This document shows positions 1,873 to 58,278 of a stretch of DNA of 64,000 nt, one piece after another. Location: IMG/VR virus record IMGVR_UViG_3300046524_000229, positions 1-64,000 of that record, one strand, 5' to 3'. Made by a program: the position numbers and the translations under genes. Source of the DNA: a virus. Under the pieces are notes generated by a model. The model did not search any database and was not told the DNA's origin. It saw only the letters and a list, made by a program, of their open reading frames with translations. Each line of letters begins with the position of its first letter. The stretch's first letter is position 1.

Positions 1873-2760
1873 ATGCTAGCATATACACTTAAAGAAATTC
1901 TCGATCTTGTACCTGAAGCAGCTTCATTCGTGAAGAAGGCGTCAGTCGAACAGGATATGCCTCTGGACAGCAAGGATTCATGCATCGCCTCAGCTCTTAA
2001 GCTGAAGTACCATGAAAAAGTTGCCTTCAAGGCTGTTGACGTATTTGCAATCGAAAAGGTTGCTCAAGCTGTTAAGGCCTATGGCGTTGAAGCTGAAGTT
2101 GCATCCTTATCCGAACGCATGGTTAATGCTGCGTTTGAAAAGTCTGCCGCCGCCGCTGCTATTGCCAATGACGACTACCTGACCAAGCAGGCTTACTTCG
2201 AAGGTGAACTCTCGGGACTGCGTCCTGAAGGTACTCTATCAAAAGAAGCTTCAGCTCTGTACGACGAAGCTGTTGCCAAGGGTATCAAACCTAGCGATGA
2301 CGTTGTTCGTTATTCAGGTCATGGGTTCATGGATAAGGAAGCAGCCGTTAAAGCTCTTGCCAATCGTTTCTATGAAACTCGCAATCCCTCTTTCGTAAAA
2401 CTGGCTACAGCCATTCATAAATTACAGGGTCAAATTAAACCAGAAACGGTTCGTGACATCTGTGATACAATTTGTGGAATGGACAAAGAAGCTGGGCTCT
2501 CAACGAAGGGCTACAACTTCTATAAAGAAACTATTCTAACGAAGGAAGCAGAAGTGATTTCTGCACTAAAAGTAAAGCTGTGCGGTCAGGACGTACCGTT
2601 CGAAAAGATCGCCAAGCTTGGCAAAGGTCGATTCTCGGCTTACATGGGTGCAGACGTAGGTAATGAATTCGATCACGGCCCTGCTCACTTTAAACAGATC
2701 CTGGAAACTCTCCCTATGGATCTTCAGAAAGTTGCACTCCATCTAACAAAGAACGTCTAA
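1873..2760 (+). CDS. Hypothetical, alpha-helical, possible virion protein
   Basis: This 295-residue protein has no recognised domain. It is rich in Ala, Lys and Glu, and short K-E-A, K-L-A and F-x-K-x-A motifs recur along its length (for example VKKASVEQ, KEASALYDEA and DKEAAVKALA). This suggests a repetitive helical structure. It sits 2 bp before the next gene in a compact rightward group. A structural role is inferred from context only. Confidence 0.5.
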   Translation: MLAYTLKEILDLVPEAASFVKKASVEQDMPLDSKDSCIASALKLKYHEKVAFKAVDVFAIEKVAQAVKAYGVEAEVASLSERMVNAAFEKSAAAAAIANDDYLTKQAYFEGELSGLRPEGTLSKEASALYDEAVAKGIKPSDDVVRYSGHGFMDKEAAVKALANRFYETRNPSFVKLATAIHKLQGQIKPETVRDICDTICGMDKEAGLSTKGYNFYKETILTKEAEVISALKVKLCGQDVPFEKIAKLGKGRFSAYMGADVGNEFDHGPAHFKQILETLPMDLQKVALHLTKNV

Positions 2761-2762
2761 TA

Positions 2763-3326
2763 ATGTTTGAAGAAGAAGACTTCGGTATTGAACTGAAAGC
2801 ACCGGATTTTCGCATGGGTCTGGCGGCTATTTCCCATATCAAAAACTCTCTGGACCGTATGTTCGGCAAAGGCGGTTGGGAAGATCTGGAAATCGAAACG
2901 ATCTCTATTACTCTAGGCACAGTCCTGGACGCATTGACTCGTGACAAAATAAGTGTTCTTCAAATTCTTGTAACCCAGCCTGAACTGTTCTACGAAGATG
3001 CATCCTTCCTGCTTTACGCTACGGATGTTATCAACAACATTGAAGCAGACTTCGAATATGTGCCTGCACCTACCTCGCTTGAGCTTGCATTTGCAATCAG
3101 TGAAGTAAAGAAGATTCTCTCAGCAGACAGCGTTTATGTTCACATTGAAGATACGACGTTCCCAAAGACAATTGCTTACATGCTTCGTCAAGAAGGTTAT
3201 TCTGTCCCGGTAGCACCGTTTGAGTTTGTACCAGCAGATGCATTGGAACCAGGTCAGACACCTGAAGATACCGCTAATAAAGCAAAAGCGATTAAACGCT
3301 ATATCAAAGAAATGGGCGGTGAATAA
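2763..3326 (+). CDS. Hypothetical protein
   Basis: This 187-residue acidic protein of mixed helix and strand is not recognised. A gentle hydrophobic pattern around residues 75-100 does not look like a membrane segment. Its stop codon overlaps the start of the next gene by one base (TAATG), which indicates translational coupling in the 588-3739 group. Confidence 0.55.
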   Translation: MFEEEDFGIELKAPDFRMGLAAISHIKNSLDRMFGKGGWEDLEIETISITLGTVLDALTRDKISVLQILVTQPELFYEDASFLLYATDVINNIEADFEYVPAPTSLELAFAISEVKKILSADSVYVHIEDTTFPKTIAYMLRQEGYSVPVAPFEFVPADALEPGQTPEDTANKAKAIKRYIKEMGGE

Positions 3327-3739
3327 TGTATACGCAATCAGTCGAAGTTAACAACCTAGTTACAGTAACAGCTCAAGGTCCGGGTACTGGTCTTTCAGTT
3401 CCACCTGATCTTGCACTGCTATTTAATGGCGCACCTGTTGTTACCCCTACGGTAAGTTTTGCATCTGCAGGTGCGGGTCCTCTTTATAATTTCACTTTTA
3501 CGCCTACTGCTACCGGCACGTATATCCTATACGCGTTTGGAGCAATTCAAGGCGTTGTAAATGTTGTAACGCAAACCCTGTACACGATTACCAAGAATAT
3601 TCAAGATGAAAGTCTTGGTAGCTGGCAATGGGATAAAGTTGCTGGTACGCTTGTAATGTTAAGAACTGACGGTACTACGCTTGCACAGTTCACCGTTATA
3701 GATAATTTAACAACATCAAGTAGAGAACGTATTTCGTAA
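3326..3739 (+). CDS. Hypothetical beta-rich (Ig-like) protein
   Basis: This 137-residue protein is rich in Thr, Val, Gly and Pro and has alternating hydrophobic residues. The phrase FTPTATGTYILYAFG near residues 57-72 is typical of Ig-like beta sandwiches on virion surfaces. The C-terminal part (SWQWDKVAGTLVML) looks like a small separate beta unit common in phage structural proteins. A virion decoration or tail-associated role is possible but unproven. Confidence 0.5.
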   Translation: MYTQSVEVNNLVTVTAQGPGTGLSVPPDLALLFNGAPVVTPTVSFASAGAGPLYNFTFTPTATGTYILYAFGAIQGVVNVVTQTLYTITKNIQDESLGSWQWDKVAGTLVMLRTDGTTLAQFTVIDNLTTSSRERIS

Positions 3740-4481: not shown

Positions 4482-5717
4482 TTACAAAGAGCGAAATGCG
4501 GTAGATTCTTGACCGACTTCTTCACTGAGAGCAAAGGTTTCATCCAATGCTGTCTCTTCTTCTGTCTCGGGATTTACAGGCGCTACTTGTGCGGCCCATT
4601 GGTTGAACCGACCCGTAGTAGTCGTAGGTTCAGACTTTTTAGCACGAGGCTTTCTCTTCGGAGCTTCAACCACAACTTCAGGATTCACGGCCTGGTTAGC
4701 TGCAAGAGCCGCCTGAGCATCACGAAGCTGAATCATCTCGTTGTTACGAAGCAAGAACGAGTCGAACAAATTCTCTGCAGAAACCATAGCGCAACTTCCA
4801 ACAAATCCTCTGTTTACTCCATTGCTGATTGAAGAGTGATATGAAGCCGACGGTTGAACAATCTTGTTGCGATAGTTCGTAATCGTGTTCTTCGTATACG
4901 TCGTCGAACCACTCCCGATATCAATCGAAATTTCGTTGTAATCCACGATCTTGTTGTAGTAGTAATTCTGCACAAACGACAGAATCAGCATAGCCATCAA
5001 CGAATTGATTGCCAAGGTCTGATCCAGGTCAGCGCAACTACCAAGGCCGGGATTGTCCTGAAGGCTTTCATAGAACTCATGGTCGTACGGCAAGTATTCG
5101 ACCGGTTCCGGAAGAAATTCGATACGCTCAGGTACACGATACTTTGCACGAAGCTCACCCTCTTGATACACCTTGTTGGAAATCAAGATGTGATTCGTAA
5201 ACATCCGAACCTGACCAAATGCGTCTTCGTTCCCCGCATCAATGAACAACGTAGTCTTGTTGTAGTTAAGCGGAGCCAAGGCTTTGAGAACCGTGCGACG
5301 AGCCTCTGCGCTATCCACACACATGATAACCAGGTCGTTCGAAGTATTCTCGATCGTTATCCCAGCGGTGTTAACCAAGTCAGCACGGAACGTCGACGGT
5401 GTCATCGCCTTATCGATAAACTTCGGATAGGCCACGACATTCATGTCGTAAGCCTTGCCATATCGCATCGCAAGAACCGAGGCCTTGTTCTTGTTCACAT
5501 CGTTTGCGATGAAGTTCTGACGAAGCAGATTCTTCTGTTCAACAATATCACCGTCAATCAGAACGATGTTCGTCGAAGGCAACCATCCAGTCGGATTATG
5601 CTCTTTCGTGATCGAACGGATAAACTGAACGAGGGTCGGAATTAGGCGGGAACCGGTTCCTCCGCAACCTACGACGAAAATGTTGGTAGGAATAGTAGGC
5701 GGGCGAAATTTAAACAT
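4482..5717 (-). CDS. E1-like ThiF-family adenylyltransferase (PRTRC ThiF type)
   Basis: This 411-residue protein has an E1/ThiF/MoeB Rossmann fold. The nucleotide loop GCGGTGS is at 17-23. DGD at 55-57 is followed by E60, N63 and R66-Q67, the classic adenylation signature. CVDSAEARR lies at 133-141 and FIDAGNEDAFGQ near 158-169. C228 (GLGSCAD) is a candidate catalytic cysteine. Proteins of this family adenylate the C-terminal glycine of a ubiquitin-like protein and then pass it on through a thioester. The last ~80 residues are low-complexity and basic/acidic. It is the last gene of the leftward cluster, matching the position of ThiF in PRTRC operons. A TGGTATAA promoter lies about 70 bp upstream. 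Confidence 0.88.
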   Translation of the reverse strand: MFKFRPPTIPTNIFVVGCGGTGSRLIPTLVQFIRSITKEHNPTGWLPSTNIVLIDGDIVEQKNLLRQNFIANDVNKNKASVLAMRYGKAYDMNVVAYPKFIDKAMTPSTFRADLVNTAGITIENTSNDLVIMCVDSAEARRTVLKALAPLNYNKTTLFIDAGNEDAFGQVRMFTNHILISNKVYQEGELRAKYRVPERIEFLPEPVEYLPYDHEFYESLQDNPGLGSCADLDQTLAINSLMAMLILSFVQNYYYNKIVDYNEISIDIGSGSTTYTKNTITNYRNKIVQPSASYHSSISNGVNRGFVGSCAMVSAENLFDSFLLRNNEMIQLRDAQAALAANQAVNPEVVVEAPKRKPRAKKSEPTTTTGRFNQWAAQVAPVNPETEEETALDETFALSEEVGQESTAFRSL

Positions 5718-5782
5718 GTTTACTCCTGGTTAAAAAGCTAGACGAATGGTCTTGTTTAAGGACGTGGTGGTCCGTTACTATT

Positions 5783-5815
5783 CTTATACCAAAGAATTCG
5801 AATTCAATGGCCGAG
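5783..5815 (-). promoter_or_regulatory. Minus-strand promoter for the E1-like gene
   Basis: The minus strand reads TTTGGTATAAG, an extended -10 (TGGTATAA, plus-strand 5784-5791). It overlaps the last codons of the upstream zinc-ribbon gene. The -35 region is poor. It would give the E1-like gene a start of its own. Confidence 0.5.
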
Positions 5816-6017
5816 GCCCAGTAGGTTCACCGATTATAACAATGCCCTTACTCGCAGCTTCTGCAGCATCAAGTTGAGCAAGGAAATTGGCCTTAGCGAC
5901 TTTTTCAAGTTCGGGACTTGACGTCATGCATTTAAAACAGATCAACGCCCCGTTATGTCCATACGGACGGACGTCAAATTCTTCGTGCAAGTCTTTGCAG
6001 TAGTGACAGAGTTTCAT
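5784..6017 (-). CDS. Small zinc-ribbon protein
   Basis: This 77-residue protein has two CxxC pairs (CHYC at 4-7 and CFKC at 27-30), which would bind one zinc ion. An Ala/Glu-rich helix follows. It lies between the JAMM and E1-like genes, overlaps the upstream small gene by one base, and its function is unknown. An accessory role in the conjugation cluster is only a positional guess. Confidence 0.6.
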   Translation of the reverse strand: MKLCHYCKDLHEEFDVRPYGHNGALICFKCMTSSPELEKVAKANFLAQLDAAEAASKGIVIIGEPTGPRPLNSNSLV

Positions 6018-6217
6018 TAAAAATCCCTAGTAAGGTTTAAAACCTTATCTTTCAAGAGTTGCAAATCTCTTTCTGCATCAATCCGTTTTCTCTTTTCATG
6101 GATTGCTGCATCACTCCACGTGTCAAATCCGTCAGGGCCTTTGGCTTCGCTTCGAAGTTTCCAGATTTCTCCCCATAGACGGATTGGGTTGGATTCGTTA
6201 GGGTCTAGAGGTTCCAT
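6017..6217 (-). CDS. Small hypothetical protein
   Basis: This 66-residue, charged protein has a likely C-terminal helix (HEKRKRIDAERDLQLLKDKVL) and no recognised motif. It begins just downstream of the terminator that follows the JAMM gene and is coupled to the next gene by a one-base overlap (TAATG on the minus strand). Confidence 0.55.
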   Translation of the reverse strand: MEPLDPNESNPIRLWGEIWKLRSEAKGPDGFDTWSDAAIHEKRKRIDAERDLQLLKDKVLNLTRDF

Positions 6218-6230
6218 AGTTTGTCTCTCT

Positions 6231-6260
6231 AAAAAAAGAAGCGCTCGGTTAAGAGCGCCT
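6231..6260 (-). terminator. Rho-independent terminator after the JAMM gene
   Basis: The minus strand folds as GCGCTC / GAGCGC followed by a long T-tract (plus-strand A-tract 6231-6237). It lies immediately after the stop of the JAMM-domain gene. Confidence 0.8.
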
Positions 6261-6266
6261 CTCGGG

Positions 6267-7646
6267 TTAGTGAATACCGTTCATCTGGATACGTTCTTGA
6301 ACTTCATCAGGGAGTTCCTGATAGAGTCGTTTGAACAAGGTTTCCATAGCAGGACCATCAGAAGCCATATGCAACATATCGGCCATAATGGTTTCTACCA
6401 ACTCATCCTTACCACTGAGATTAGCCATGATGTCATCAATCAGACAGAATGCTTCTGCAGTGTCGTGACCATGTTGAGCATGGACTTCATCGTAACGATC
6501 ATCGCCTGCATACATGCTCATGCCGGGACCATCTTGATAAGTCTGATTACGGATCTCTCCAGTAGCCTGATCGACGTCAGGATCGAACGCAGGATTATAC
6601 CCAGCATTGCCCGTGTAAGCAGGGGGAAGATGCGACTCGTCATAGCTCGGATCTTCGAACGCACGAGCCAACGCACGCTCTGCATATGCAAGCCTTTCAT
6701 CCTCGCCATTCGGAGTCAGATTCCAGGCATCGTCGGGATGACTCAGTGCGGGGTTTTGGGCCATCCCCCAGAAATCACCCTGCCAGTCGATATCACGCCC
6801 GTCCCAGGATTCGCCGGGAAGTAACCCCCGTTGGTTCTGGAGATGAGGACCAGCTCTATTGCCTTCCTTTTCTCCGCTTCCCGCGTCTCCCTTTTTGTAT
6901 TGCCACGGCTTCAAGTGTTCCGCTTTTCCCTTTGTGCTGTTCCCTCCATACACAGTAACCGGAGGCGTATACGTATTGATTTTTGCAACCCAATCAGCAG
7001 GGACCGCTGCCTCAGGACGAGCCGGGAGTTCGAACACATCATCCAGTTCGCACTCGATCTTCTTGTCACGATAGTTAAAGCGCCAAACCGTTTGCGGATT
7101 GGTACTCTTCAGATGTCCGACAACGCCTGAGAAACCGATGTTATTTTGATCATCACGATTATCCGTGCCACTGAAGAACGCACCCATCGTATTGTGACTA
7201 TGAATATCACAGACGATAGTCTTGCCCGTCGGAAGCGACGACCAGTCATACGAAGCCGAAGCTTTCGATACACGTTGATCCGGAACGATCAAGTGATAGC
7301 CACTTTCAGCGTCCCAACAAATCCAGATCATCGCCTCAACTTCAGACTTCTTGACTTCCATGACCTGTTTGAAAAACGCAACAACCTGGTCAAACAGTTC
7401 AATTGGGATCTTACCGTCAGGCAGAAAGTTGATTTCCTGAGAAATACGAGTCGTTTTATAGTTGTCCGGGAGCTTGTCAACTGCCAGACGAACATAACGA
7501 TTCTGACCACGAAGCTTATGGTGCTTCAGAATCGGGGATTCCTTCGAACCGGTCATAACATAGATTTCGTTATAGCCCGCTTCCATTGCAGCCGGAAGTT
7601 CGTTCGGGGTTACAACACAGCTGATGAATTGAGTAATGATGTCCAT
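6267..7646 (-). CDS. JAB/JAMM-domain metalloprotease (PRTRC protein A type)
   Basis: This 459-residue protein carries a complete JAMM zinc-peptidase motif. H149-S-H151, ten residues, then D162, with S159, read HSHNTMGAFFSGTD, and E104 is a plausible catalytic glutamate on the preceding strand. The arrangement is nearly identical to that of the proteasomal deubiquitinase Rpn11. Family members cleave ubiquitin-like proteins from targets or trim their precursors. The MPN domain spans roughly 85-215. The C-terminal half is Gly/Asp/Pro-rich, poorly conserved in appearance, and ends in a helical segment. The gene lies 26 bp downstream of the E2-like gene, in the order E2-JAMM-E1 known from PRTRC operons. 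Confidence 0.88.
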   Translation of the reverse strand: MDIITQFISCVVTPNELPAAMEAGYNEIYVMTGSKESPILKHHKLRGQNRYVRLAVDKLPDNYKTTRISQEINFLPDGKIPIELFDQVVAFFKQVMEVKKSEVEAMIWICWDAESGYHLIVPDQRVSKASASYDWSSLPTGKTIVCDIHSHNTMGAFFSGTDNRDDQNNIGFSGVVGHLKSTNPQTVWRFNYRDKKIECELDDVFELPARPEAAVPADWVAKINTYTPPVTVYGGNSTKGKAEHLKPWQYKKGDAGSGEKEGNRAGPHLQNQRGLLPGESWDGRDIDWQGDFWGMAQNPALSHPDDAWNLTPNGEDERLAYAERALARAFEDPSYDESHLPPAYTGNAGYNPAFDPDVDQATGEIRNQTYQDGPGMSMYAGDDRYDEVHAQHGHDTAEAFCLIDDIMANLSGKDELVETIMADMLHMASDGPAMETLFKRLYQELPDEVQERIQMNGIH

Positions 7647-7672
7647 CTAAAACTCTCCTGGAGTTGTTTTAC

Positions 7673-8437
7673 TTAAACGGCTTTGAAGCCGCGAAGTGAT
7701 TCGTAGGGGAAAGGCTTATTGTCTTTTGCTGCATCAGCGAGTTTCTTGAACCAGGCTTCAATAGAAGGCTCACCAGAAACTGCACGAAGACCCAGGTCAT
7801 TGTTGAACGGGGATTCAAACAGGAACTGATAATACCAATCCAAGCCACGCAGGTTATTTTCCGTGAACTGTGTAGGCATTGAGTTGCCACCGTAGCACAT
7901 GTTCCCTTCCGAATAAGTATTCGGGAACGGCGACAGATAGATATGCTTGTTACCGTCTACACCCCAGATGAAGGTCTTAGGCAAGTTACCTACTTTGGCA
8001 TTCGTCGCATAGTATCTCGACCCAGTTGATTTCCACGTTTTCGAATTGTGGCGAGTCAGCTGATGACTGATAATGAAGTTAGGCGCACGCACCGTGTACT
8101 TCTTATTCATGTGACGCATGTCAGCCACACGCTCAGCATAATAACAACTCAGTTGAATCGTGGTACTCGACTTTGCGAAATAGAAACAGTTCGACGGAAG
8201 CTGGAAGCCTTCCATCTGTTCCTCATTACGGTGATTGACAACTGCACCGATAATCGCATTAAAGTCTTCGTACGAGACTCGCTTTTCGACTTGGCTCTTT
8301 TCATCGCCGACCATGAATGCTACGCAATCTTCGAGAAGAATAACGTGATGGCCTAGTACATCCACAAGTCGCTCTTGAGGCTTCAAAATTTCTTTAGCCA
8401 CGGGAGCTTCTACAGCTTCGATAACAATATCTGTCAT
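7673..8437 (-). CDS. E2-like protein (PRTRC protein B type)
   Basis: This 254-residue protein matches the PRTRC-B pattern. A beta-rich middle leads into LSPFPNTYSEGNMCYGG at residues 168-184, with C181 in the position expected for the thioester cysteine of an E2-like fold. Upstream lies the F/W-x-x-P-N-x-Y-x-x-G-x-x-C block typical of these proteins. C-terminal helices follow (LDWYYQFLFESPFNNDL). It would accept the ubiquitin-like protein from the E1-like protein and pass it to a target. The start overlaps the upstream small gene by 4 bases. Assignment rests on motif and gene order, because I could not compare structures. Confidence 0.75.
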   Translation of the reverse strand: MTDIVIEAVEAPVAKEILKPQERLVDVLGHHVILLEDCVAFMVGDEKSQVEKRVSYEDFNAIIGAVVNHRNEEQMEGFQLPSNCFYFAKSSTTIQLSCYYAERVADMRHMNKKYTVRAPNFIISHQLTRHNSKTWKSTGSRYYATNAKVGNLPKTFIWGVDGNKHIYLSPFPNTYSEGNMCYGGNSMPTQFTENNLRGLDWYYQFLFESPFNNDLGLRAVSGEPSIEAWFKKLADAAKDNKPFPYESLRGFKAV

Positions 8438-8688
8438 ACAAAATCCTCTTCAGTATCTGTAACTGCGTGTTTGGCTTTAACTACCTGAACCTCGATATTT
8501 TTGAGATTCGCTTTGGTTCTGCGTACAGTTTCAACCTGGAACACTTGAACACAGGCCCTACTCAATAATTCGAGATCGGAATGAGTTTTAGGAATATCCA
8601 CATCGTTGAATCTATTTACTGCTGCATAAACTTCAGAAGCCAAATCAGGTAGTTTCGACGCTTCCGACATTAAACGCTGAAGTATCAT
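8434..8688 (-). CDS. Small hypothetical protein in the conjugation cluster
   Basis: This 84-residue helical protein is not recognised. Its 3' end overlaps the E2-like gene by 4 bases and its 5' end overlaps the upstream 304-residue gene, so translation is coupled. The ATG at codon 7 (8670) is an alternative start that reduces the upstream overlap. Confidence 0.55.
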   Translation of the reverse strand: MILQRLMSEASKLPDLASEVYAAVNRFNDVDIPKTHSDLELLSRACVQVFQVETVRRTKANLKNIEVQVVKAKHAVTDTEEDFV

Positions 8689-9559
8689 ATTGTACCCGTC
8701 GTGTAAAAGTGGTAATCACCTTGATCATTTCGTCAAGGACTGTAAAGATCTTTTCAGATGTACTATATCGCTCAAGACCTGGATAATACTCAACCCTAGA
8801 ACGACTGGTAAGAGGAGAAGCAGTCCACCTATCAGGATCTTTGAAACGTCTTATCGTTGTTTCATCACCCTCTTTGATAATGTGTTTCTGATATTCTTCA
8901 TACGAAGTAATACTCAATTCTGGTGCAGAAGTGACAATTGCAGCGTAATTGGCAAATTGATAAATCACCAACTCCGCTTTAACTGTAGAAACCGCTTTTA
9001 CTCTAAAAGTAGCCTCACCGCTTCTTGTCTTCCACCAGGTTTCATACGCCGCTTCATCTTCCGGATGAATAGAAAACTCAAATCCCGGAGACAGGCTAAT
9101 AGGGATACCGTTCTTAATAGCCTTATAGCGCAAGAATCTACAATACCGCTCTATACTTTTTTTCCATTTGAGACTATCTGACGCAACGTCCGCAAAAGAA
9201 GGCTCAAGTCTACTAACAGTTACTGGAAAATATGGAGATTCCAGTTTGATACCTATCCCGTTAGGTCTATTACTCAACGGGAACAGAAACTGTTCACCGC
9301 CACGAATATACTCAAGGTAAGGAATCTGTTTCTTAACATGCTTATAGAGAATCTCTTTAAGCTTCTGTACAGATTTACGCTGCGCTCCTGAACGACTGCC
9401 GCTGATATCGAATTCGTAGTTAAACGTCTTCGTTGAGAGTCGCTTATCCAGGATCTGCTGCGTACAAAACTTCGAAAGTTTATTCGATGCATCTGTTCTC
9501 ATCTTTATGATGAGCGATGACAGATCTGATACGTTCTGAGGTAATTTGAATTTTCGCAT
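8645..9559 (-). CDS. Hypothetical protein in the PRTRC-F position
   Basis: This 304-residue protein has no motif that I recognise. It is rich in Lys, Arg, Ser and aromatic residues and looks globular. It lies between the ubiquitin-like gene and the E2-like gene, which is where PRTRC protein F is found in plasmid operons (order C-F-B-A-ThiF). That correspondence is positional only. A terminator lies between the ubiquitin-like gene and this start, so it is reached by read-through or by a promoter that I cannot see. Confidence 0.6.
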   Translation of the reverse strand: MRKFKLPQNVSDLSSLIIKMRTDASNKLSKFCTQQILDKRLSTKTFNYEFDISGSRSGAQRKSVQKLKEILYKHVKKQIPYLEYIRGGEQFLFPLSNRPNGIGIKLESPYFPVTVSRLEPSFADVASDSLKWKKSIERYCRFLRYKAIKNGIPISLSPGFEFSIHPEDEAAYETWWKTRSGEATFRVKAVSTVKAELVIYQFANYAAIVTSAPELSITSYEEYQKHIIKEGDETTIRRFKDPDRWTASPLTSRSRVEYYPGLERYSTSEKIFTVLDEMIKVITTFTRRVQYDTSAFNVGSVETT

Positions 9560-9604
9560 ATCTATCCTGTTGTATTCCTGTTTTTCTTAAGCTCCTAGCT
9601 TGAC

Positions 9605-9657
9605 TAAAAAAAACAGGAAAAACGAACAGCAAAGCTAGGAGAGAACCTTGCTGTTCG
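9605..9657 (-). terminator. Terminator after the ubiquitin-like gene
   Basis: On the minus strand CGAACAGCAA pairs with TTGCTGTTCG (plus 9648-9657 with 9623-9632), and two T-runs follow. It separates the short ubiquitin-like gene from the rest of the cluster. Confidence 0.8.
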
Positions 9658-9695
9658 TTCTGCTTACACAGACTAAAGAATTAGTCTATGCGTGC

Positions 9696-9905
9696 TTAGC
9701 CCTTCGTGCCGGTACGCGGCTTGAAGGTGATTTCGCGGGCTTCGCCGCCATCGATGCTGATAACACGTTCGTCAGCTTGCATGCTGCCGATACCCGAGAT
9801 ATCGCCTGCGTAGTTCGTACGAACGAAGTCAACGCTACGGTCACCCGGAATGGTGTATTCGGTATCGGTCGAAGCAACAACGATGATGGTCTTGATAACT
9901 GCCAT
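9696..9905 (-). CDS. Small ubiquitin-like protein (PRTRC protein C type)
   Basis: This 69-residue protein has the size of a beta-grasp modifier and ends in ITFKPRTGTKG, so a glycine is the last residue. The GTKG ending and the preceding strand resemble PRTRC protein C, a ubiquitin-like protein. Strands at 3-10 and 58-63 flank a helix around 22-32, consistent with the fold. It is the likely substrate of the neighbouring E1-, E2- and JAMM-type proteins. It has two tandem promoters and its own terminator, so it may be made in excess over the enzymes, as expected of a modifier. There is no Gly-Gly, so maturation by the JAMM protein may not be needed. Confidence 0.75.
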   Translation of the reverse strand: MAVIKTIIVVASTDTEYTIPGDRSVDFVRTNYAGDISGIGSMQADERVISIDGGEAREITFKPRTGTKG

Positions 9906-9975
9906 TTTGTAAATCCTTAACTTTATCTAGATAAAAAGAAAATGAACTTTGAGAACGTATGTTCTACCTGTCCAA

Positions 9976-10092
9976 TATAGTTATACCAAACATTTCAAAA
10001 TTATTGAAAATGTAATGGTTAATAAAAGCTATTCTTAGCCTTTACAATATAGTTATACCAATGGACATAAAAATATTGAATTTAACAGGCTA
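9976..10092 (-). promoter_or_regulatory. Two tandem minus-strand promoters
   Basis: Both carry TGGTATAACTATATTG on the minus strand (plus-strand TTATACCA at 9981-9988 and 10053-10060). In each, TTCAAT lies 17 bases upstream of the -10. They share this layout with the promoter in the Y-RNA array and with one at 54762. They would drive the ubiquitin-like gene. Confidence 0.65.
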
Positions 10093-10175: not shown

Positions 10176-10667
10176 TTAATAGGCAAGTTCAACCGACTTC
10201 ATCTTATAGGAGTATCCTCCGCACATCGCCTTGGTAAGAATTTCGGCAATTTCATCAAAGGTAGCTCCCATATCATTCAGACCGGTAAGAGCCAGTTGCT
10301 TTATGTTCATTGTGGCCTTAGCGCCATCCGGAAACTGCCCACCTACGTAAATGCCAAGCGGTCCCATGCCGCCATACATTCTTCGGATTGTGGGCAGCAC
10401 ATATTCCTGTGTGCTCATGATTTCGCCTTTCTCCACGGGGAAACTGTATCCGAAACCCCCGTCGTGCTCAATCCATCCCTCCTTGGAGATCAAATCACAT
10501 GCAACACCCATACAACAGTACGTATCACCTTTCCTCAGGATACCTTTTGCCTGACGATAGGCCCCAGACTTCAAAGCTGCTATCCAGTTCTTCCACCTTT
10601 GTCTCTGGATCTCGGTCAAAGGTACATCGGGAATTTCACGGATTACAGCGCCGCATTGTAGTATCAT
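10176..10667 (-). CDS. Conserved phage hypothetical protein
   Basis: The protein has 163 residues and is of unknown function. The segment RQRWKNWIAALKSGAYRQAKG followed by a Cys-Cys motif (TYCCMGVACDL, residues 49-59) is a pattern that I recognise from many phage hypothetical proteins. It is transcribed alone, with a promoter at 10745-10752 and the complex terminator downstream. Confidence 0.65.
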   Translation of the reverse strand: MILQCGAVIREIPDVPLTEIQRQRWKNWIAALKSGAYRQAKGILRKGDTYCCMGVACDLISKEGWIEHDGGFGYSFPVEKGEIMSTQEYVLPTIRRMYGGMGPLGIYVGGQFPDGAKATMNIKQLALTGLNDMGATFDEIAEILTKAMCGGYSYKMKSVELAY

Positions 10668-10744
10668 AGGTACGCCTCATTATGTAAGTATAAAACAACT
10701 AGCGTAGGACAAAAATCAAAAAGCCATATTGTTCTACATTATTC

Positions 10745-10765
10745 TTATACCAAAATAGCGTACTA
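10745..10765 (-). promoter_or_regulatory. Minus-strand promoter
   Basis: The minus strand reads TTTTGGTATAAGAATA, the same extended -10 as at the other leftward units. It lies upstream of the 163-residue gene, in the gap between that gene and the divergent terminase gene. Confidence 0.55.
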
Positions 10766-10775
10766 ACATAGGTTC

Positions 10776-12389
10776 ATGGAATTAAACAAACTACTTAGAC
10801 TAAAACCATCTGAAATTTCAAAAGCTTTGCTAACGCTGAAGGGTAAGCCGTTAAACCTCGACGACTACAAACCTTTTGAAATTATCTATGACATTGCCCC
10901 GAATGAGATGACTCTCATGGCGGGACGTCAGATTGGTAAATCAGTGTCCCTTGGGGCAGCTATCGTAGCTAACAGCCTTGTTAGAGGACACTTTTCGACC
11001 TTGTTCAGTAGCCCATTGGCTCAACAAACCTCGCGGTTCTCTACAGCGTATCTGGATCCGTTCCTAAGTTCACCTTTGATCCGTAGACACTTCACAGATC
11101 CATCAACACGTAAGAACGTTTTCTCTAAGTCCTTCACTAATGGAAGCTCTGTTACTCTCGGTTACGCCGAAACAGAACAAGATGCCGACCGTATTCGTGG
11201 GGTGTTTGCGGATGCGCTCTACCTGGACGAATTCCAGGACACAAGTATCGAATGTGCCCCTATTCTCGCAGAAACGTTGGGCGCTTCTGACTTTGCTTTC
11301 AGACGTTATACTGGCACTGCCAAGACTGAAACTAATTCGCTTACGCAAAAATTCAAGCAAGGCAATATGATGGAGTGGGCTGTGCAATGCCCGAAGTGTA
11401 AAAAATACTCATTGCCGCTTGACTTTGACGTTTGCCACAGAATGCTGACTATCAACCCTGAAGGGCCTGGTTGTTTGTTTTGCGGCGGAGTACTGGACAT
11501 GAAGACCGGTAAGTGGGTGGCTGCACGTCCGATGGAAAAAGATCATCTATCATTCCATCTCCCTCAAATAATTTTCCCGGCTCGTACTAAGCCTAAGAAG
11601 TGGAAAGAGTTATTGCATAAAGCAAAGACGTATTCGATACCTAAACTTGCTAACGAAGTGTTTGGATGCCCAAGCGGTCTCGCCGGTCGTCCTCTTTCAC
11701 TTAAGGAAGTAATGTCATGCTGTAACAATACTAAGACAGAGTGGGATAAGAGTTTTCCAGTTGATAAGCGAAACATCCTTCATACAGTGCTTGGTGTTGA
11801 CTGGTCTGTAAGCGGAGGTTCTAACTCGTACACAGTTATTACTGTTCTTGGTTATGACTGGAATGGCAAATGCTACCTCCTTTATTCGCAACGTTTGAAC
11901 GGTATTGATATTCTGGATCAAGTTAAACGCGTTGAGCAACTATATTCGCAATACAAATGCACGATGCTTGCATCTGATCGTGGCGTCGGTCAGCTTCAGG
12001 TTGAACTGATGAGAAAAAGTATTGGCGATGATCGTGTAAATTCGATACAATATGTTGCAGCAAAGAATACTCTACGTTGGGACAAGGATGGTCGGTTCTT
12101 TTCAGCAGATAGAACTACCAATATGGATACGATGGTGCTTAAGGCTAAACTAGGTCGTGAACGCATCGAAACACCTTGTTGGAATCTGATGTCTGAGTTC
12201 TGGCAGGATGCACTAAACATCTACGAAGAAGAATCTGTGACTGGACGACGTCTTTATAAAAAAGACGAAGACTTATGTGATGACTGGTTTCATAGCATCG
12301 TGTTTGCCAATATTGCATACATGGTATTGAAAGGTGAATTCCTGACAGTCGACGAAGTGAAGAATGAAAAAGATGTGTTTGACTTTTAA
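10776..12389 (+). CDS. terL: Terminase large subunit
   Basis: This 537-residue protein is the DNA-packaging motor. The N-terminal ATPase has Walker A GRQIGKS at 50-56 and Walker B ALYLDE at 147-152. A zinc-knuckle insertion with C205-x2-C208 and C233-x2-C236 follows. The RNase H-like nuclease begins at GVDWS (D342), continues with ASDRG near 395-399, and ends with a DDW...H segment near 513-517. No small subunit is adjacent. The gene starts the main rightward block and is divergent from the preceding leftward gene. Confidence 0.93.
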   Translation: MELNKLLRLKPSEISKALLTLKGKPLNLDDYKPFEIIYDIAPNEMTLMAGRQIGKSVSLGAAIVANSLVRGHFSTLFSSPLAQQTSRFSTAYLDPFLSSPLIRRHFTDPSTRKNVFSKSFTNGSSVTLGYAETEQDADRIRGVFADALYLDEFQDTSIECAPILAETLGASDFAFRRYTGTAKTETNSLTQKFKQGNMMEWAVQCPKCKKYSLPLDFDVCHRMLTINPEGPGCLFCGGVLDMKTGKWVAARPMEKDHLSFHLPQIIFPARTKPKKWKELLHKAKTYSIPKLANEVFGCPSGLAGRPLSLKEVMSCCNNTKTEWDKSFPVDKRNILHTVLGVDWSVSGGSNSYTVITVLGYDWNGKCYLLYSQRLNGIDILDQVKRVEQLYSQYKCTMLASDRGVGQLQVELMRKSIGDDRVNSIQYVAAKNTLRWDKDGRFFSADRTTNMDTMVLKAKLGRERIETPCWNLMSEFWQDALNIYEEESVTGRRLYKKDEDLCDDWFHSIVFANIAYMVLKGEFLTVDEVKNEKDVFDF

Positions 12390-22316: not shown

Positions 22317-22532
22317 ATGACAACGACAAACACAGATGGATTCGCAGCCCTTGGGGAAACTAAGGGCGGTTTGCCAAGAAGCGTTAACATCCCTACGAAT
22401 ATCTCAAGTATGTTATCTGGGACTTCGTGGGCAGATGACGTGTTCGTATACCAGAAATTTGCTGAGAAGTTGCAGGCATATCTTGTTGGTTATGTAAATG
22501 CAATCTACTCGGATCATAACGTATATCTATAA
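22317..22532 (+). CDS. Small baseplate-region protein
   Basis: This 71-residue protein is of unknown function. It is preceded by AAGGAG at 22299-22304 and TAAAATA at 22305-22311. It overlaps the sigma-factor gene by one base, so the two are translationally coupled. Confidence 0.55.
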   Translation: MTTTNTDGFAALGETKGGLPRSVNIPTNISSMLSGTSWADDVFVYQKFAEKLQAYLVGYVNAIYSDHNVYL

Positions 22533-23248
22533 TGACTGAAGAAACTACAAAACCAGAATTTATCGACTATCGGTCAAAAGACCGGGAGTTGTTTGACAAA
22601 TGGAAAGAGACCGGCAGTAAACGGGATCTTGGTAATTTGATGCATCAACTCTCAGGGGTTATTTATCAGGAAGTCAATAGACAGTCTGGAAGTCTACCCA
22701 ATGCTGCGCTTAGTGCAGAGGCTAAAACTTGGGCTATCAAAGCCATCAATACGTATGATCCTAGTAAAGGGACTCAGCTGTCTACGCACGTAACTAATTA
22801 TCTCCAACGTGTACGTCGCCTAAATTACAAGTATCAGAACGCAGTTAGACTTCCTGAAAATATGCAGCTTATGTATAGGGATTGGAATTCGGCTAATCAG
22901 GAATTGTCCGATCAGCTTAACCGTGATCCTACTGAAGAAGAACTCGCTAAGCATTTAGGTTGGACAAAGCCTCAAGTTATTAAATATAGAAACTCTCTGT
23001 ACTCGGATCTCGTTGAATCAGCTTCGGATAAACCAGCTGAATTTACTCAGTACAATGAAAGCGCAGAACTTATGGCCTATCTCATGAGTCAACTGACGCC
23101 TGATGAAAAATTTATTCTTGACAACGTTAAACTGATGCCTGCCCCGCAAATCGCTGCAAAGCTTGGTGTTAACATCAATCGATATAACTATATCAAGACG
23201 CAACTTAAGAACAAAATCGAAAAAATTAAGCAGGATATTGGACTCTAA
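22532..23248 (+). CDS. Sigma70-family RNA polymerase sigma factor
   Basis: The protein has 238 residues. A region-2-like segment spans about 60-115, with AIKAINTYDPSKGTQLSTHV corresponding to the Y-x-x-xxG-x-x-F-x-T-x-(A/V) core. A region-3 helix set has the phrase NRDPTEEELAKHLGW (130-144), and a region-4 HTH spans about 185-235 (LTPDEKFILDNVK, then QIAAKLGVNINRYNYIKTQL). Such proteins redirect host RNA polymerase to phage promoters. Its place inside the baseplate operon suggests a late-gene or delayed regulator, possibly acting at the TAAAATA motif. It is coupled by one-base overlaps on both sides. Confidence 0.85.
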   Translation: MTEETTKPEFIDYRSKDRELFDKWKETGSKRDLGNLMHQLSGVIYQEVNRQSGSLPNAALSAEAKTWAIKAINTYDPSKGTQLSTHVTNYLQRVRRLNYKYQNAVRLPENMQLMYRDWNSANQELSDQLNRDPTEEELAKHLGWTKPQVIKYRNSLYSDLVESASDKPAEFTQYNESAELMAYLMSQLTPDEKFILDNVKLMPAPQIAAKLGVNINRYNYIKTQLKNKIEKIKQDIGL

Positions 23249-47751: not shown

Positions 47752-48615
47752 TCACTCGCCTTCGAGAATCGCTTTGATACCACTTATCGTTGTACGACAA
47801 CCGGCTGAGTTAGGATGGCCACCACCACCGTACTTCTTGGCAATTGCACTGACATCAACGCCTGAGCCCTGTTTTGAGCGTAGTGACAGAATCACTGTGT
47901 TGTCATTGAGTACAAACCAACATACACCGACGTCAACGTTCAGCGTTTCATCAGAGTACATCGCATGGCCCATCTCTGACACAAGCTGACCCGTGTTCAG
48001 AAAACCACACTTGTAACCTTCCCAGTTTACAACCTTGACATTACGTGGCACTTGAGCTTCGACCGCTGCCTGATCACGTTCAAGAAGGATTTCACCAGTA
48101 TCCACAAGGTCTTGTAGAACATTCTCATTAGACGCGTATTTGTTCCAAAGAGGCATGTTGCCTTTTAATGTTCCAAGGCCAGCATGAATAAGTTTGCTGT
48201 CATTCCCGAACTTGAACTTCCAAAGATCTCGATCTTGAACATATTGCAATAGCATCGGAACCGAATCATCGGGATGAAAGTAGTTCCATGCAATTACAGC
48301 CCCGCTCCGTTCCATGTCAAACACGACTTCGACCTTGGGATGATTACAGCCCTCCAGAGCCTCTCGTGCGGTCTGATGATGGTCGAGTACCACAACCTTG
48401 CCACAAGCCTCTCCAAGGGCCTCTAATTCAGTCCTAGAGGTACTGTAGTCCAGAAAGAATACTTCAGTTTCTGATCCACGTTCAAAATCAGGCAAAGGCT
48501 TACCGTACTGACAGGCTAAATAAATAGCCTTATCCCCGAACTTTTTCCATGCTGCATATTTGCTGCCGGTACCATCCATGCAGTCTTTGTGATAGAGAAT
48601 TACTGTGTTTGTCAT
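47752..48615 (-). CDS. DHH-family phosphoesterase
   Basis: The protein has 287 residues. The N-terminal motif LYHKDCMDGTGS and VVVLDHHQTA (about 93-102) provide the DHH metal site. The C-terminal DHHA1 motif GGGGHPNSAG (about 265-274) completes the active site. The family includes oligoribonuclease-like and cyclic-dinucleotide phosphodiesterases, and the sequence does not decide the substrate. Breakdown of short RNA or of a cyclic nucleotide signal are both possible. Confidence 0.85.
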   Translation of the reverse strand: MTNTVILYHKDCMDGTGSKYAAWKKFGDKAIYLACQYGKPLPDFERGSETEVFFLDYSTSRTELEALGEACGKVVVLDHHQTAREALEGCNHPKVEVVFDMERSGAVIAWNYFHPDDSVPMLLQYVQDRDLWKFKFGNDSKLIHAGLGTLKGNMPLWNKYASNENVLQDLVDTGEILLERDQAAVEAQVPRNVKVVNWEGYKCGFLNTGQLVSEMGHAMYSDETLNVDVGVCWFVLNDNTVILSLRSKQGSGVDVSAIAKKYGGGGHPNSAGCRTTISGIKAILEGE

Positions 48616-50247: not shown

Positions 50248-51870
50248 TTAGATACGTCCAGCTATAAATTCAGACATGAAACGCGGCGTCTGCGTATCGA
50301 AGCCCACAACATCAAGCATGTTCGGATCCTTGGGATCTGCGATGCTGAAGTCATTGACTGCCATACCGACTACGATCAGCTTTGCATCAGGCTTGTTCAT
50401 GCCTTGGCGATACTTTTGCATGGCTTGGAACGGATGCTGTCTACCAGCATACGTCTCGTTGTCCGTATAGATACAGAACGCATCCACGTTCCAACGGTGT
50501 GCAAGCGCATGTTCAGCAGGCAAAGCACAGTTCGTAGAACCGAAGTTCCAGTCATGCGCCTTGGTGGTAGCCGATTCAAGCGTATCGTGCTTCGTGATGT
50601 TCAGCGGCTTGAACGTCTTAGCGAAGCCCAACACTTCAGTCCAAGGTTCCGTACGAGCCGAAACCATAGCCATCAGTGCAGCACCTTCACAACACGTCAA
50701 CTGCGGAACACCCGGAATAGCCGAACCCATTGAACCTGACACGTCAAGCGCCAGAACAATATTCTTACCAGACGGTTCCACCGCGTCGAACGAAAGGTAG
50801 AACGCCGCTTCAAGCGTATCCTTGACGGTATTATCCGGGGTCCAAACCAGCGAACCCTTATCGCCCTTGCCTTGAGAGTAGATCTTCTTAGCAACGATAA
50901 TCGACATCGGATGCAGACGTTCCTTACGAAGCTGTTCCACATCCAGAAGCTTGGTCGTGACCAGCTTACTCGTTTCCGAGAAAGGCTTGATCAGTCCAAC
51001 AGCCGTCAGCTTGTTCAGGTTACGAACCAATGCATTCAGGCCCATATGCGGAACGAGTGCTTCCCAAATCTTCGGGTCATTCTTTTGCTCATTAGGGATC
51101 ATTTCATGCGTCAGCTTGTGATCCTGAATCAGGTTGACAAGTGCGCTGCCGCTAGCAGTCTTGGCTTCTTCAACTGCAATCAGAAGCTCAGGAACCTGGT
51201 CACCCAGAGCAAGTGCTTCCGGACCCTTCACGATGTACTTGTAAAGGTTTTGACGAACCGTGTCTTCACCAGGCTTCACATGCGACAGACGCATAACGTC
51301 CTTGTGCGACCAACCATCACGTTGCTTGTACTTCACAACCTGATAGGCGAGATTCGTCACAGTCTTGTCCGCATACCACTTCTGTGCAACGTTCTTAAGC
51401 GAACGACCCCAACCTCTAAGTCCATTCGCAAATGCAACGAAGTGCAGGAAGTGCGTGCCAGTACGAGCCACGAGGTTCACTTTGTCCTTGGCATACAGTT
51501 TCGTAGCCACGTCACCGTGAGTGAAGACCAACGCCATAGCAAGCAACGCGTAGTCATTGTTCTTGGCACGACCAGCCTGGCTGATCTCAACGATACGGTC
51601 GACCACAACCTTACCATTCGTTTGGATCAACTTGACGATATCGTCGACCTTGGCCTTGGTGATATCTTTCTCGGACTGATAGAACGTACCACCGCTCGTA
51701 CCGATGATCAGGAAACGATCGAGCTTCTGCAGAGGCGTTACCTCAAACACAAAGCCGCCAGCGTTGTTCTTTACTTGAGCGACAGAAGCATTACCAGCCG
51801 GTTTGGTCTGAACCGTAGTCTTTGCTTGAGTGCGGGTGTTGGTATTGTTAGAGAGGGAATTGAAAGACAT
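50248..51870 (-). CDS. rsr: Ro60/Rsr-like RNA-binding protein (TROVE + vWA)
   Basis: The protein has 540 residues. After a ~35-residue polar N-terminus, a TROVE domain of helical repeats runs from about 40 to 360 and contains the family signature YKQRDGWSHKDVMRLSH (181-197). A von Willebrand A domain follows (about 368-540) with an intact MIDAS: DVSGS at 376-380, then Thr in FGSTN and Asp in IYTDN. Ro60 proteins form a ring that binds misfolded RNA in the central hole and Y RNA on the outside. In bacteria Y RNAs link Rsr to exoribonucleases. The genomic neighbour here is an array of Y-RNA-like units just upstream. Confidence 0.93.
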   Translation of the reverse strand: MSFNSLSNNTNTRTQAKTTVQTKPAGNASVAQVKNNAGGFVFEVTPLQKLDRFLIIGTSGGTFYQSEKDITKAKVDDIVKLIQTNGKVVVDRIVEISQAGRAKNNDYALLAMALVFTHGDVATKLYAKDKVNLVARTGTHFLHFVAFANGLRGWGRSLKNVAQKWYADKTVTNLAYQVVKYKQRDGWSHKDVMRLSHVKPGEDTVRQNLYKYIVKGPEALALGDQVPELLIAVEEAKTASGSALVNLIQDHKLTHEMIPNEQKNDPKIWEALVPHMGLNALVRNLNKLTAVGLIKPFSETSKLVTTKLLDVEQLRKERLHPMSIIVAKKIYSQGKGDKGSLVWTPDNTVKDTLEAAFYLSFDAVEPSGKNIVLALDVSGSMGSAIPGVPQLTCCEGAALMAMVSARTEPWTEVLGFAKTFKPLNITKHDTLESATTKAHDWNFGSTNCALPAEHALAHRWNVDAFCIYTDNETYAGRQHPFQAMQKYRQGMNKPDAKLIVVGMAVNDFSIADPKDPNMLDVVGFDTQTPRFMSEFIAGRI

Positions 51871-57023: not shown

Positions 57024-57236
57024 TTAAAGTCCTAGCAAAGCTAGAAGTGCTGTGCCTGGAATTACCAACGGCCAGAAGACAGTAGCAGTTAGACACTGAC
57101 CTATTTCCGTCAACTCAATTTCTCTCCAGGTTATTTCCCTATGGAATGACTCAGAGATTCCAGACCCAACCATAACGCCGCTTACGAATATGAAACCAAC
57201 GACGTATATGATTAGAAGGATATGGCCCCAGCTCAT
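57024..57236 (-). CDS. Small membrane protein
   Basis: I chose the ATG at 57236 because it overlaps the TAXI gene stop (ATGA). The protein has about 70 residues with two membrane segments (about 4-25 and 45-68). It is co-translated with the TAXI-like protein. Confidence 0.55.
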   Translation of the reverse strand: MSWGHILLIIYVVGFIFVSGVMVGSGISESFHREITWREIELTEIGQCLTATVFWPLVIPGTALLALLGL

Positions 57237-58162
57237 TTCAGATCGTACCAAGCCCACTTGCCCTGATCCTTGGCATCAACCGATTGCCATGCTGGGCTCG
57301 TATTTGTGGTCTCTTGCAAGTCGTCGATGTTCTTCAGGAAGCATGCACGCAGCGCAGTCAAAGCCGACACGAAGCGTGCAGACTTGTATTCACGAGTCAC
57401 GAACAACGACCGGATCGAAACCGTCGGCACACCCGCCGCGTTCAGGTTACGATACGACAGACGCGCAGGTTGATATACCGCCTTCAGCTTGTCCTGGATC
57501 GCAGGTTGAATAGGCAAGAGCCTGTATGTGCTAGGCAACGCTGCAACTTCTGCCATCGGTTCACCGCCAACGATAACCACACCGTCGACCTGACCCGCGC
57601 TCAAAGCTTCGAGCGCAGCCTTGTTCGAAGGAAACTCCGTCACATTGTAACCAATACCCGACTGGGCTTTGATCACTTTCGCAGTGAGAACCGAACCACC
57701 GGCAGCGCCGACGCTACGACCATTCAGATCCGAAATCGTGTTGAAGTGAATGGTCTTGGCACCGAAGCCTAGAACACCACCTTCCTTCACGCCTTCAGCA
57801 CGTGCGATCAGGTGAACCTGTTCCGAGTGAAGCGAGAACAGAGTCTTGACCTTGCTGAGATCTTCGGTCTTGCTACGCAGGATCAGCACGTCGGTCTGAA
57901 CGAATGCGCCATTGACCTGATTGGCCACCATCTTGTCGACGTTTTCGTTCGACCCCGACGACGGTACTTCCTTGATGTCAATACCGCTTCCGGTATCGAC
58001 ACCGCAACGCGCATTCAACTCCCTGAACATCGCGTGATACGTACCTGCAGGCCCGCCAGTTGCTACGGCGAGAGATTGAGCGTGAGCAGCGTGACACACG
58101 AGAAATGTGAGCAACGCTGTGAGAATGATCAAAGGGATACGGGGAACGCGGGACCAAATCAT
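57233..58162 (-). CDS. TAXI-family periplasmic solute-binding protein
   Basis: I chose the ATG at 58162, which overlaps the stop of a tiny upstream gene. The protein has about 309 residues with a signal peptide (IPLIILTALLTFLVCHAAHA). The mature part begins with LAVATGGPAGTYHAM, the TAXI signature. Later come SSGSNENVDKM, ISDLNGRSVGAAGGSV and DGVVIVGGEP, all typical. TAXI proteins bind small acids for TRAP transporters. No transporter permease is present. Base composition is higher in GC than the neighbours, which suggests acquisition from a bacterium. Confidence 0.85.
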   Translation of the reverse strand: MIWSRVPRIPLIILTALLTFLVCHAAHAQSLAVATGGPAGTYHAMFRELNARCGVDTGSGIDIKEVPSSGSNENVDKMVANQVNGAFVQTDVLILRSKTEDLSKVKTLFSLHSEQVHLIARAEGVKEGGVLGFGAKTIHFNTISDLNGRSVGAAGGSVLTAKVIKAQSGIGYNVTEFPSNKAALEALSAGQVDGVVIVGGEPMAEVAALPSTYRLLPIQPAIQDKLKAVYQPARLSYRNLNAAGVPTVSIRSLFVTREYKSARFVSALTALRACFLKNIDDLQETTNTSPAWQSVDAKDQGKWAWYDLK

Positions 58163-58278
58163 GACTTCTCCTGGGTATTGGAAAGAAAGAGGATGCAGAA
58201 AACTTCGGTGTAGCCGAACACACAAACTACGGCAAGCAGAATTGCCGCTGCGTCAAGCAGCAGATTTGTAATGTCCAC
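58159..58278 (-). CDS. Tiny single-span membrane peptide
   Basis: A 39-codon frame with GTG start at 58278, directly after the stop of the upstream gene, encodes a hydrophobic helix (LLLDAAAILLAVVCVFGY). Its stop overlaps the TAXI start by 4 bases. The exact junctions on both sides support expression. Confidence 0.6.
   Translation of the reverse strand: MDITNLLLDAAAILLAVVCVFGYTEVFCILFLSNTQEKS

Follow-up and report, generated by a model that had tools for sequence, protein, structure and literature searches.

The DNA analysed here (the window) comprises positions 1 to 64,000 of the IMG/VR virus record IMGVR_UViG_3300046524_000229, which is 107,134 bp in length. At 4482–9905, on the minus strand, it carries a module of genes predicted to encode a ubiquitin-like conjugation pathway. 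In the order of transcription, the genes encode a ubiquitin-like protein of 69 residues (Ubl; 9696–9905), a 304-residue protein in the position that PRTRC gene sets assign to PRTRC-F (F-position protein; 8645–9559), the product of an 84-residue open reading frame (ORF; 8434–8688), an E2-like enzyme (7673–8437), a JAMM peptidase (6267–7646), the products of two ORFs of 66 and 77 residues (6017–6217 and 5784–6017) and an E1-like adenylyltransferase of the ThiF family (4482–5717). The F-position gene overlaps the 84-residue ORF by 44 bp, and the latter overlaps the E2 gene by 4 bp. Every ORF named in an earlier sequence-only reading of this DNA was found at or near the position given there, and its reading of the motifs was confirmed; it had overlooked the ORFs of 84, 66 and 77 residues. 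The 84-residue ORF is conserved in relatives, and the other two occur only in close relatives, the 77-residue protein having two CxxC pairs and belonging to phrog_18256. As had been claimed, the module lies beside the terminase: the gene for the terminase large subunit (TerL; 10776–12389, plus strand; phrog_675, 1e-50) flanks it and provides an independent anchor.

The AlphaFold2 model of the Ubl (predicted local distance difference test score, pLDDT, 93.2) shows strands at residues 3–10 and 15–20, a helix at 25–32, strands at 43–51 and 54–62 and a flexible tail. With this beta-beta-alpha-beta-beta order and a pLDDT of 93, the proposed beta-grasp fold survives the test set for it beforehand. 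The tail, KPRTGTKG, ends in the motif G-x-K-G, which is invariant in all 29 phage Ubls that we aligned; the tails of plasmid PRTRC_C proteins are mostly GTKG or GAKG. As a single sequence, the window's Ubl matches no family in Pfam or NCBIfam, including TIGR03738 (PRTRC_C). That model is matched by the Ubls of 4 of 29 relatives (best 0.0012), and the phage Ubl profile aligns to the plasmid PRTRC_C profile with an hhalign probability of 92 (E 7e-7). Since trypsin cleavage at the lysine of GTKG leaves a single Gly (+57.0215), the mass of a carbamidomethylation, the GTKG-remnant mass spectrometry proposed earlier needs changing. In Salmonella phage Arash, gp251c (L006:102-320) is annotated in the wrong frame and the true gene (L006:107-307) encodes a 66-residue Ubl; the public annotation, from which the Ubl was missing, is thereby corrected.

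The window's Ubl is one unit and not a tandem. Several relatives encode tandem Ubls in a single ORF, with three units in Vibrio phage D69, five at locus L066 and two at loci L018, L020, L032, L033, L050 and L070. In Bacillus phage KLEB27-3, gp199 (L009:730-1437) consists of four tandem Ubls ending in AGVKG and lies beside genes for E2, JAMM and ThiF proteins; KLEB27-3 is a second, separate phage lineage with a poly-Ubl. The repeats are 98–100% identical in protein, and 22–30 of 45–52 synonymous sites have changed (p 1e-11 to 1e-21). The two units of L018, for example, encode the same protein and differ at 29.5 of 46 synonymous sites (Fisher p 4e-21), and the repeats of L033, L050 and KLEB27-3 show the same pattern. 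Since the repeats are nearly identical in protein and nearly saturated at synonymous sites, each released unit appears to be under selection. Some poly-Ubls carry short tails past the last Gly and would thus need trimming. In these respects the tandem genes resemble eukaryotic polyubiquitin, a likeness that can be read as a polyubiquitin signature. Bacterial genes with one to three Ubls have already been reported (PMC1779556).

The E1 matches ThiF (PF00899) above the Pfam cut-off (3e-14), and PRTRC_ThiF (TIGR03736; 1e-24) is nonetheless its nearest family, although the score of 87 bits is below the cut-off of 144.75. The JAMM peptidase matches Prok-JAB (PF14464) above the cut-off (8e-9) and PRTRC_A (TIGR03735; 1e-20) with 74 bits, below the cut-off of 101.8. 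The E2 matches Prok-E2_D (PF14460) with 37.5 bits against a cut-off of 25, and the E2 proteins of 20 of 26 relatives match this family at E ≤ 0.01; with PRTRC_B (TIGR03737) the window's E2 scores 26 bits, below the cut-off of 131, and a profile–profile comparison of phage E2 and PRTRC_B gives a probability of 67 (E 5e-5 over 175 columns). When the profiles were compared with PDB sequences, that of E1 matched ThiF-type, MccB and eukaryotic E1 adenylation domains, and those of JAMM, E2 and Ubl matched nothing relevant.

The catalytic residues of all three enzymes are invariant in six aligned relatives, as expected from the claim that they are intact, and the motifs are also present in further loci. 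The adenylation motifs of E1 are complete, the invariant residues being GCGGTGSR, D57, N63, R66, Q67, K78 and C228; the last, in the sequence SCADL, is the candidate catalytic cysteine, and a low-complexity tail forms the C-terminus. The MPN+ motif of JAMM (E104...HSHNTMGAFFSGTD) is likewise complete, with invariant E104, H149, H151, S159 and D162. In E2, P170, N173, C181 and G183 are invariant among 26 sequences, and the HPN-type N173 lies eight residues before the predicted catalytic C181. The spacing between Asn and Cys in the eukaryotic HPN motif is also eight residues (N77 and C85 in UBE2D). In the AlphaFold2 model of E2 (pLDDT 89), the order of the elements (an N-terminal helix, a beta-meander and helices that follow the Cys) and the spacing of N173 and C181 fit the UBC fold. 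In D69, the E1 gene (L007:8968-9945) has no ATG, GTG or TTG at the expected start, where a non-standard start codon is possible; the start given in GenBank (9190) removes the ATP-binding motif.

Group I introns break catalytic codons of JAMM in two different groups of phages, at three sites in total (L005:9157-9495, L026:10301-11442 and L010:3166-5197). L005 and Acinetobacter phage ME3 have an intron between H149 and S150; in L026 and in L047, which resembles it, the intron lies between H151 and N152. ME3 has a second intron just before D162, so that its two introns enclose a short exon, and it also has an ORF resembling GIY-YIG. The L005 and L026 introns and one of the two in ME3 score below the Rfam gathering score; the other ME3 intron scores above it. 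Apparent splits of the JAMM genes of L133 and L136 do not represent introns at the motif. An active, conserved JAMM peptidase would fit with introns that home into catalytic codons, which evolve slowly.

Relatives were found by searches with E1 and E2, and hidden Markov models were built from six module families. Besides many IMG/VR contigs, the isolated phages Arash (Salmonella) and D69, D181 and D148 (Vibrio) carry the module. At loci anchored on E2, the order Ubl–F–small ORF–E2–JAMM–E1 is constant and on a single strand; the most divergent loci no longer have a recognisable F or small ORF. Anchoring on the terminase and counting only loci whose sequence extends 9 kb or more upstream of TerL, we found Ubl, E1, E2 and JAMM all present upstream in 31 of 33 loci, some of these contigs being near-identical; in the two exceptions (L030 and L066) the four genes lie elsewhere on the contig. 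All four isolated phages with a TerL of more than 40% identity have the module. The next TerLs are about 25% identical, and none of those phages gave an E1 match; a scan of GTDB genomes with the E2 profile found no relative.

Distances between the enzymes track those between the terminases (Mantel rho 0.71 for E1, 0.57 for E2 and 0.74 for JAMM; p 0.001). In the E1 tree, the E1 proteins of the lineage form one clade (support 100/99) apart from plasmid PRTRC ThiF, and the sequences nearest to it are from other large phages (ME3, KLEB27-3 and IMG/VR contigs). Both results argue for vertical inheritance. The ratio of nonsynonymous to synonymous substitution rates (dN/dS), determined against a relative of about 70% identity, is 0.06–0.24 for five genes and 0.46 for the short Ubl gene. 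The low dN/dS, which reflects purifying selection, and the synteny conserved in dozens of phages are beyond chance. No integrase was found in 17 of 18 related records. The module is a core trait of a lineage of phages of about 100–190 kb and not a one-off.

A scan for sigma-70 promoters showed no excess over shuffled sequences; what we found instead is a repeated, phage-specific motif. The motif TGGTATAANNATANTG (at most one mismatch) occurs nine times in the record and never on the plus strand; 0.1 sites would be expected per 64 kb, and the reversed pattern has none. This candidate promoter motif can also be given as TGGTATAA. Two copies lie upstream of Ubl (9973–9988 and 10045–10060), one, with one mismatch, upstream of E1 (5776–5791) and one (10737–10752) before the gene for a 163-residue protein (phrog_18067; 10176–10667, minus strand), a co-oriented neighbour that is not universal. 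The motif recurs before Ubl in most relatives scanned (at most two mismatches). Directly 3′ of Ubl, a predicted intrinsic terminator with an 18-bp stem (9619–9661, minus strand) parts Ubl from the enzyme genes, and in nine of nine lineages folded, Ubl is followed by a strong hairpin and T run. We infer that Ubl is transcribed mainly alone, at higher levels than the enzyme genes and perhaps separately from the plus-strand virion genes. The record also encodes a sigma-70 region 3 protein (22532–23248, plus strand).

Proteins of Arash particles purified by sucrose gradient are listed in Table 2 of PMC10585845. At the module, the numbering of this table is one ahead of that in GenBank: coverages of 77.17, 61.41, 76.25 and 80.50% fit only proteins of 346, 412, 320 and 159 residues among the neighbouring ORFs, which are E1, JAMM, the F-position protein and gp243. 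This arithmetic fixes three of the four module identities, and applying the same offset in numbering identifies the entry for E2. The spectra number 430 for E1, 369 for JAMM, 226 for E2 and 379 for the F-position protein, showing that these four proteins are expressed rather than where they are located. Detection of the Arash Ubl was impossible, as in its true frame it is outside the annotated set. On the other side of the module, the flanking genes (1873–3739) occupy the same place in relatives, and for two of these genes the matching Arash products are among the particle proteins.

Taken together, these data make it very probable that the module encodes a working, reversible pathway of Ubl conjugation and deconjugation, passed on vertically within the core gene content of one lineage of large tailed phages, most of which lack an integrase. 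With its gene set and motifs conserved, the E1–E2–JAMM–Ubl pathway, which the sequence-only reading had considered possibly active, appears to be intact. Ubl would be overproduced owing to its own duplicated promoter and its terminator, in some relatives as a precursor of two to five units. The JAMM peptidase would cut after each G-x-K-G and free the carboxyl end, and E1 would use ATP to adenylate the terminal Gly and probably form a thioester through its C228. Ubl would then pass to C181 of E2, which would attach it to amino groups of the target; the F-position and 84-residue proteins are possible adaptors in this step. Finally, JAMM would take Ubl off again.

The common gene order C-F-B-A-ThiF, the GTKG or GAKG tails of PRTRC_C and the similarity of the Ubl and E2 profiles could instead indicate a PRTRC system proper that came from a plasmid and has a role in plasmid maintenance. 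However, ParB is absent from the record and from 17 relatives (18 records in all, with working positive controls), as the sequence-only reading had noted for this locus, and no ORF of the module matches PRTRC-E, the rest of the record not having been searched with that model. The F-position protein matches no known family, and the idea that its position makes it a relative of PRTRC-F did not hold (hhalign probability 0.05 between the families; no NCBIfam match). Of the proposed PRTRC kinship, the PRTRC-like order stands; ThiF, A and B score below the TIGRFAM cut-offs, F is unrelated and the phage E1 clade is separate from the plasmid one. On several of its defining features, the module is not a PRTRC system, and a plasmid-maintenance role is very improbable. 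The idea that the lineage consists of phage-plasmids was ruled out by the lack of ParB and the lack of an integrase in 17 of 18 records. A PRTRC set of the plasmid type (L008:2776-6699) occurs in Burkholderia phage BgVeeders33, which is circular and 33 kb long; the Ubl of this set has GTKG followed by a long tail, and its E1 nests among plasmid ThiF proteins; here, a recent exchange between plasmid and phage is likely. Membership of E1 in the ThiF superfamily and the prediction that some JAMMs process sulfur carriers (Iyer 2006, PMC1779556) would agree with a ThiS/MoaD-like role, the Ubl C-terminus being thiocarboxylated for a biosynthetic or tRNA reaction. Yet the tail is GTKG and not GG, E2 and its conserved Cys are never missing and none of the module's genes was recognised as a partner from sulfur metabolism, so we consider such a role very improbable. 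That the genes are decaying or decorative and without current function might be suggested by the interrupted JAMM genes of three IMG/VR relatives and ME3; since these genes are interrupted by group I introns in the codons of the active site, this is not simple decay, and with low dN/dS, window genes free of stops and frameshifts and four proteins detected in Arash, this explanation is hardly credible.

The target of the proposed conjugation pathway is less clear, and it is nearly an even question whether Ubl is attached to a virion or assembly protein of the phage. Tentative is a more specific version, in which the complete core cascade, including a deconjugase and precursors of the polyubiquitin type, modifies virion or assembly proteins of the phage itself and travels within the virus particle. 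Equally tentative is a host protein as the target, the main alternative being a universal host machine during takeover. The same chemistry would then serve counter-defence or host takeover by placing Ubl on host proteins such as defence proteins or RNA polymerase, a use that we regard as possible but doubtful. Bacterial Ubl systems do act in phage–host conflict, as in the reported conjugation of cGAS in CBASS (PMC10097602), and the promoter motif is found on no strand but the minus strand, whose genes, where checked, are non-virion. On the other hand, genes for counter-defence tend to be accessory and to differ between hosts, whereas the module is universal and syntenic from Salmonella to Vibrio hosts, which argues for a core process, and PADLOC recognises only the adenylation fold of E1.

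Several observations weigh against the pathway as proposed or against its placement in the virion. The restriction of the promoter motif to the minus strand makes co-expression with the plus-strand virion genes doubtful and thus weakens the idea of a virion target. In Arash, the module proteins have low unique-peptide counts (2–5), and the 116 proteins listed include DNA ligase and ribonucleotide reductase, so carry-over from the lysate is likely. A Foldseek search of the PDB with the Ubl model gave nothing significant, the best match being Protein L, a beta-grasp domain (E 0.04). The proposed E2 fold did not fail its check, but none of the PDB matches to the confident model (pLDDT 89) is significant (the best true E2, a fungal one, is at rank 5 with E 0.4), and the identity of E2 therefore rests on Pfam and the Cys/Asn geometry. 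Moreover, a downstream His that is invariant in plasmid PRTRC_B (7/7) is Asn in the phage E2 proteins (SPFNND). What we observe are the gene set and order, the motifs, their conservation and the precursor architecture, and from these we infer every biochemical step.

Elsewhere in the window, we noted a phage-encoded Ro60/TROVE RNA-binding protein (50248–51870; PF25045, PF05731) and an NMT1-like solute-binding protein with a signal-like N-terminus (57233–58225; PF16868). A nicotinate phosphoribosyltransferase and a DHH/DHHA1 protein are encoded on the minus strand at 62888–63982 and 47752–48615.

Bacterial Ubl conjugation has so far mostly been discovered as host defence, and the PRTRC relatives have no assigned function. 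The titles and abstracts of the open-licence literature that we searched mention no complete phage-encoded cascade and yielded no relevant paper on PRTRC and ubiquitin. In the phage group described here, protein tagging looks built into the life cycle rather than acquired by chance. The culturable lytic phages Arash, D69, D181 and D148, with their streamlined and universal module, offer a tractable system with few genes and a one-step growth assay, which would test whether viruses tag proteins with a ubiquitin-like modifier of their own, which proteins they tag, and why a polyubiquitin-like precursor is sometimes used.

Among known systems, type II CBASS (Cap2/Cap3) and 6A-MBL use the same E1, E2 and JAMM/isopeptidase chemistry. 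In the phage module, E1 and E2 are unfused, there is no nucleotidyltransferase or metallo-beta-lactamase, and the genes are on the side of the phage and not of the host; the E1–E2 fusion or two-lobed E1 and the effector genes that mark type II CBASS, Bil and 6A-MBL were not found. The poly-Ubl operons of type 6e (PMC1779556) and Bil with its two-domain BilA (PMC11354881) likewise have a JAMM peptidase and Ubl genes of at least two units. Unlike type 6e, in which JAB is fused to E1, and unlike Bil with its two-lobed E1, the phage systems keep E1, E2 and JAMM separate and have up to five repeats. The tail assembly proteins TAPI and TAPK of phage Lambda (PMC1779556) also place a Ubl-like domain beside JAB, but without E1 or E2.

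The type 6d operon described by Iyer, Burroughs and Aravind (2006, PMC1779556) combines a Ubl, a helical protein, E2, JAB-N/JAB and E1. The phage module shares this five-part logic: a small standalone Ubl with a conserved C-terminal Gly, a standalone E2, JAB and an E1 without rhodanese are separate neighbours. It keeps the E2 Cys, lacks the downstream His of E2 and the Arg/Trp of JAB-N, and is a lineage core, whereas type 6d is sporadic. The PRTRC cassette of plasmids and integrative and conjugative elements (TIGR03735–03738; Azospira pAZI09 and a Cupriavidus taiwanensis plasmid) has the same order, Ubl–F–E2–JAMM–ThiF, and shares the Ubl tail and E2 family D; its ThiF and A proteins are the nearest subfamilies of the phage E1 and JAMM. 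Unlike that cassette, the phage module has no ParB or PRTRC-E, an unrelated F-position protein, the extra 84-residue ORF, a separate E1 clade, an E2 without the downstream His and a Ubl that is often tandem; its JAMM is longer and lacks the N-terminal R[PA]W motif present in the plasmid A proteins examined. By these comparisons, the module is a phage sister branch of PRTRC, similar to type 6d.

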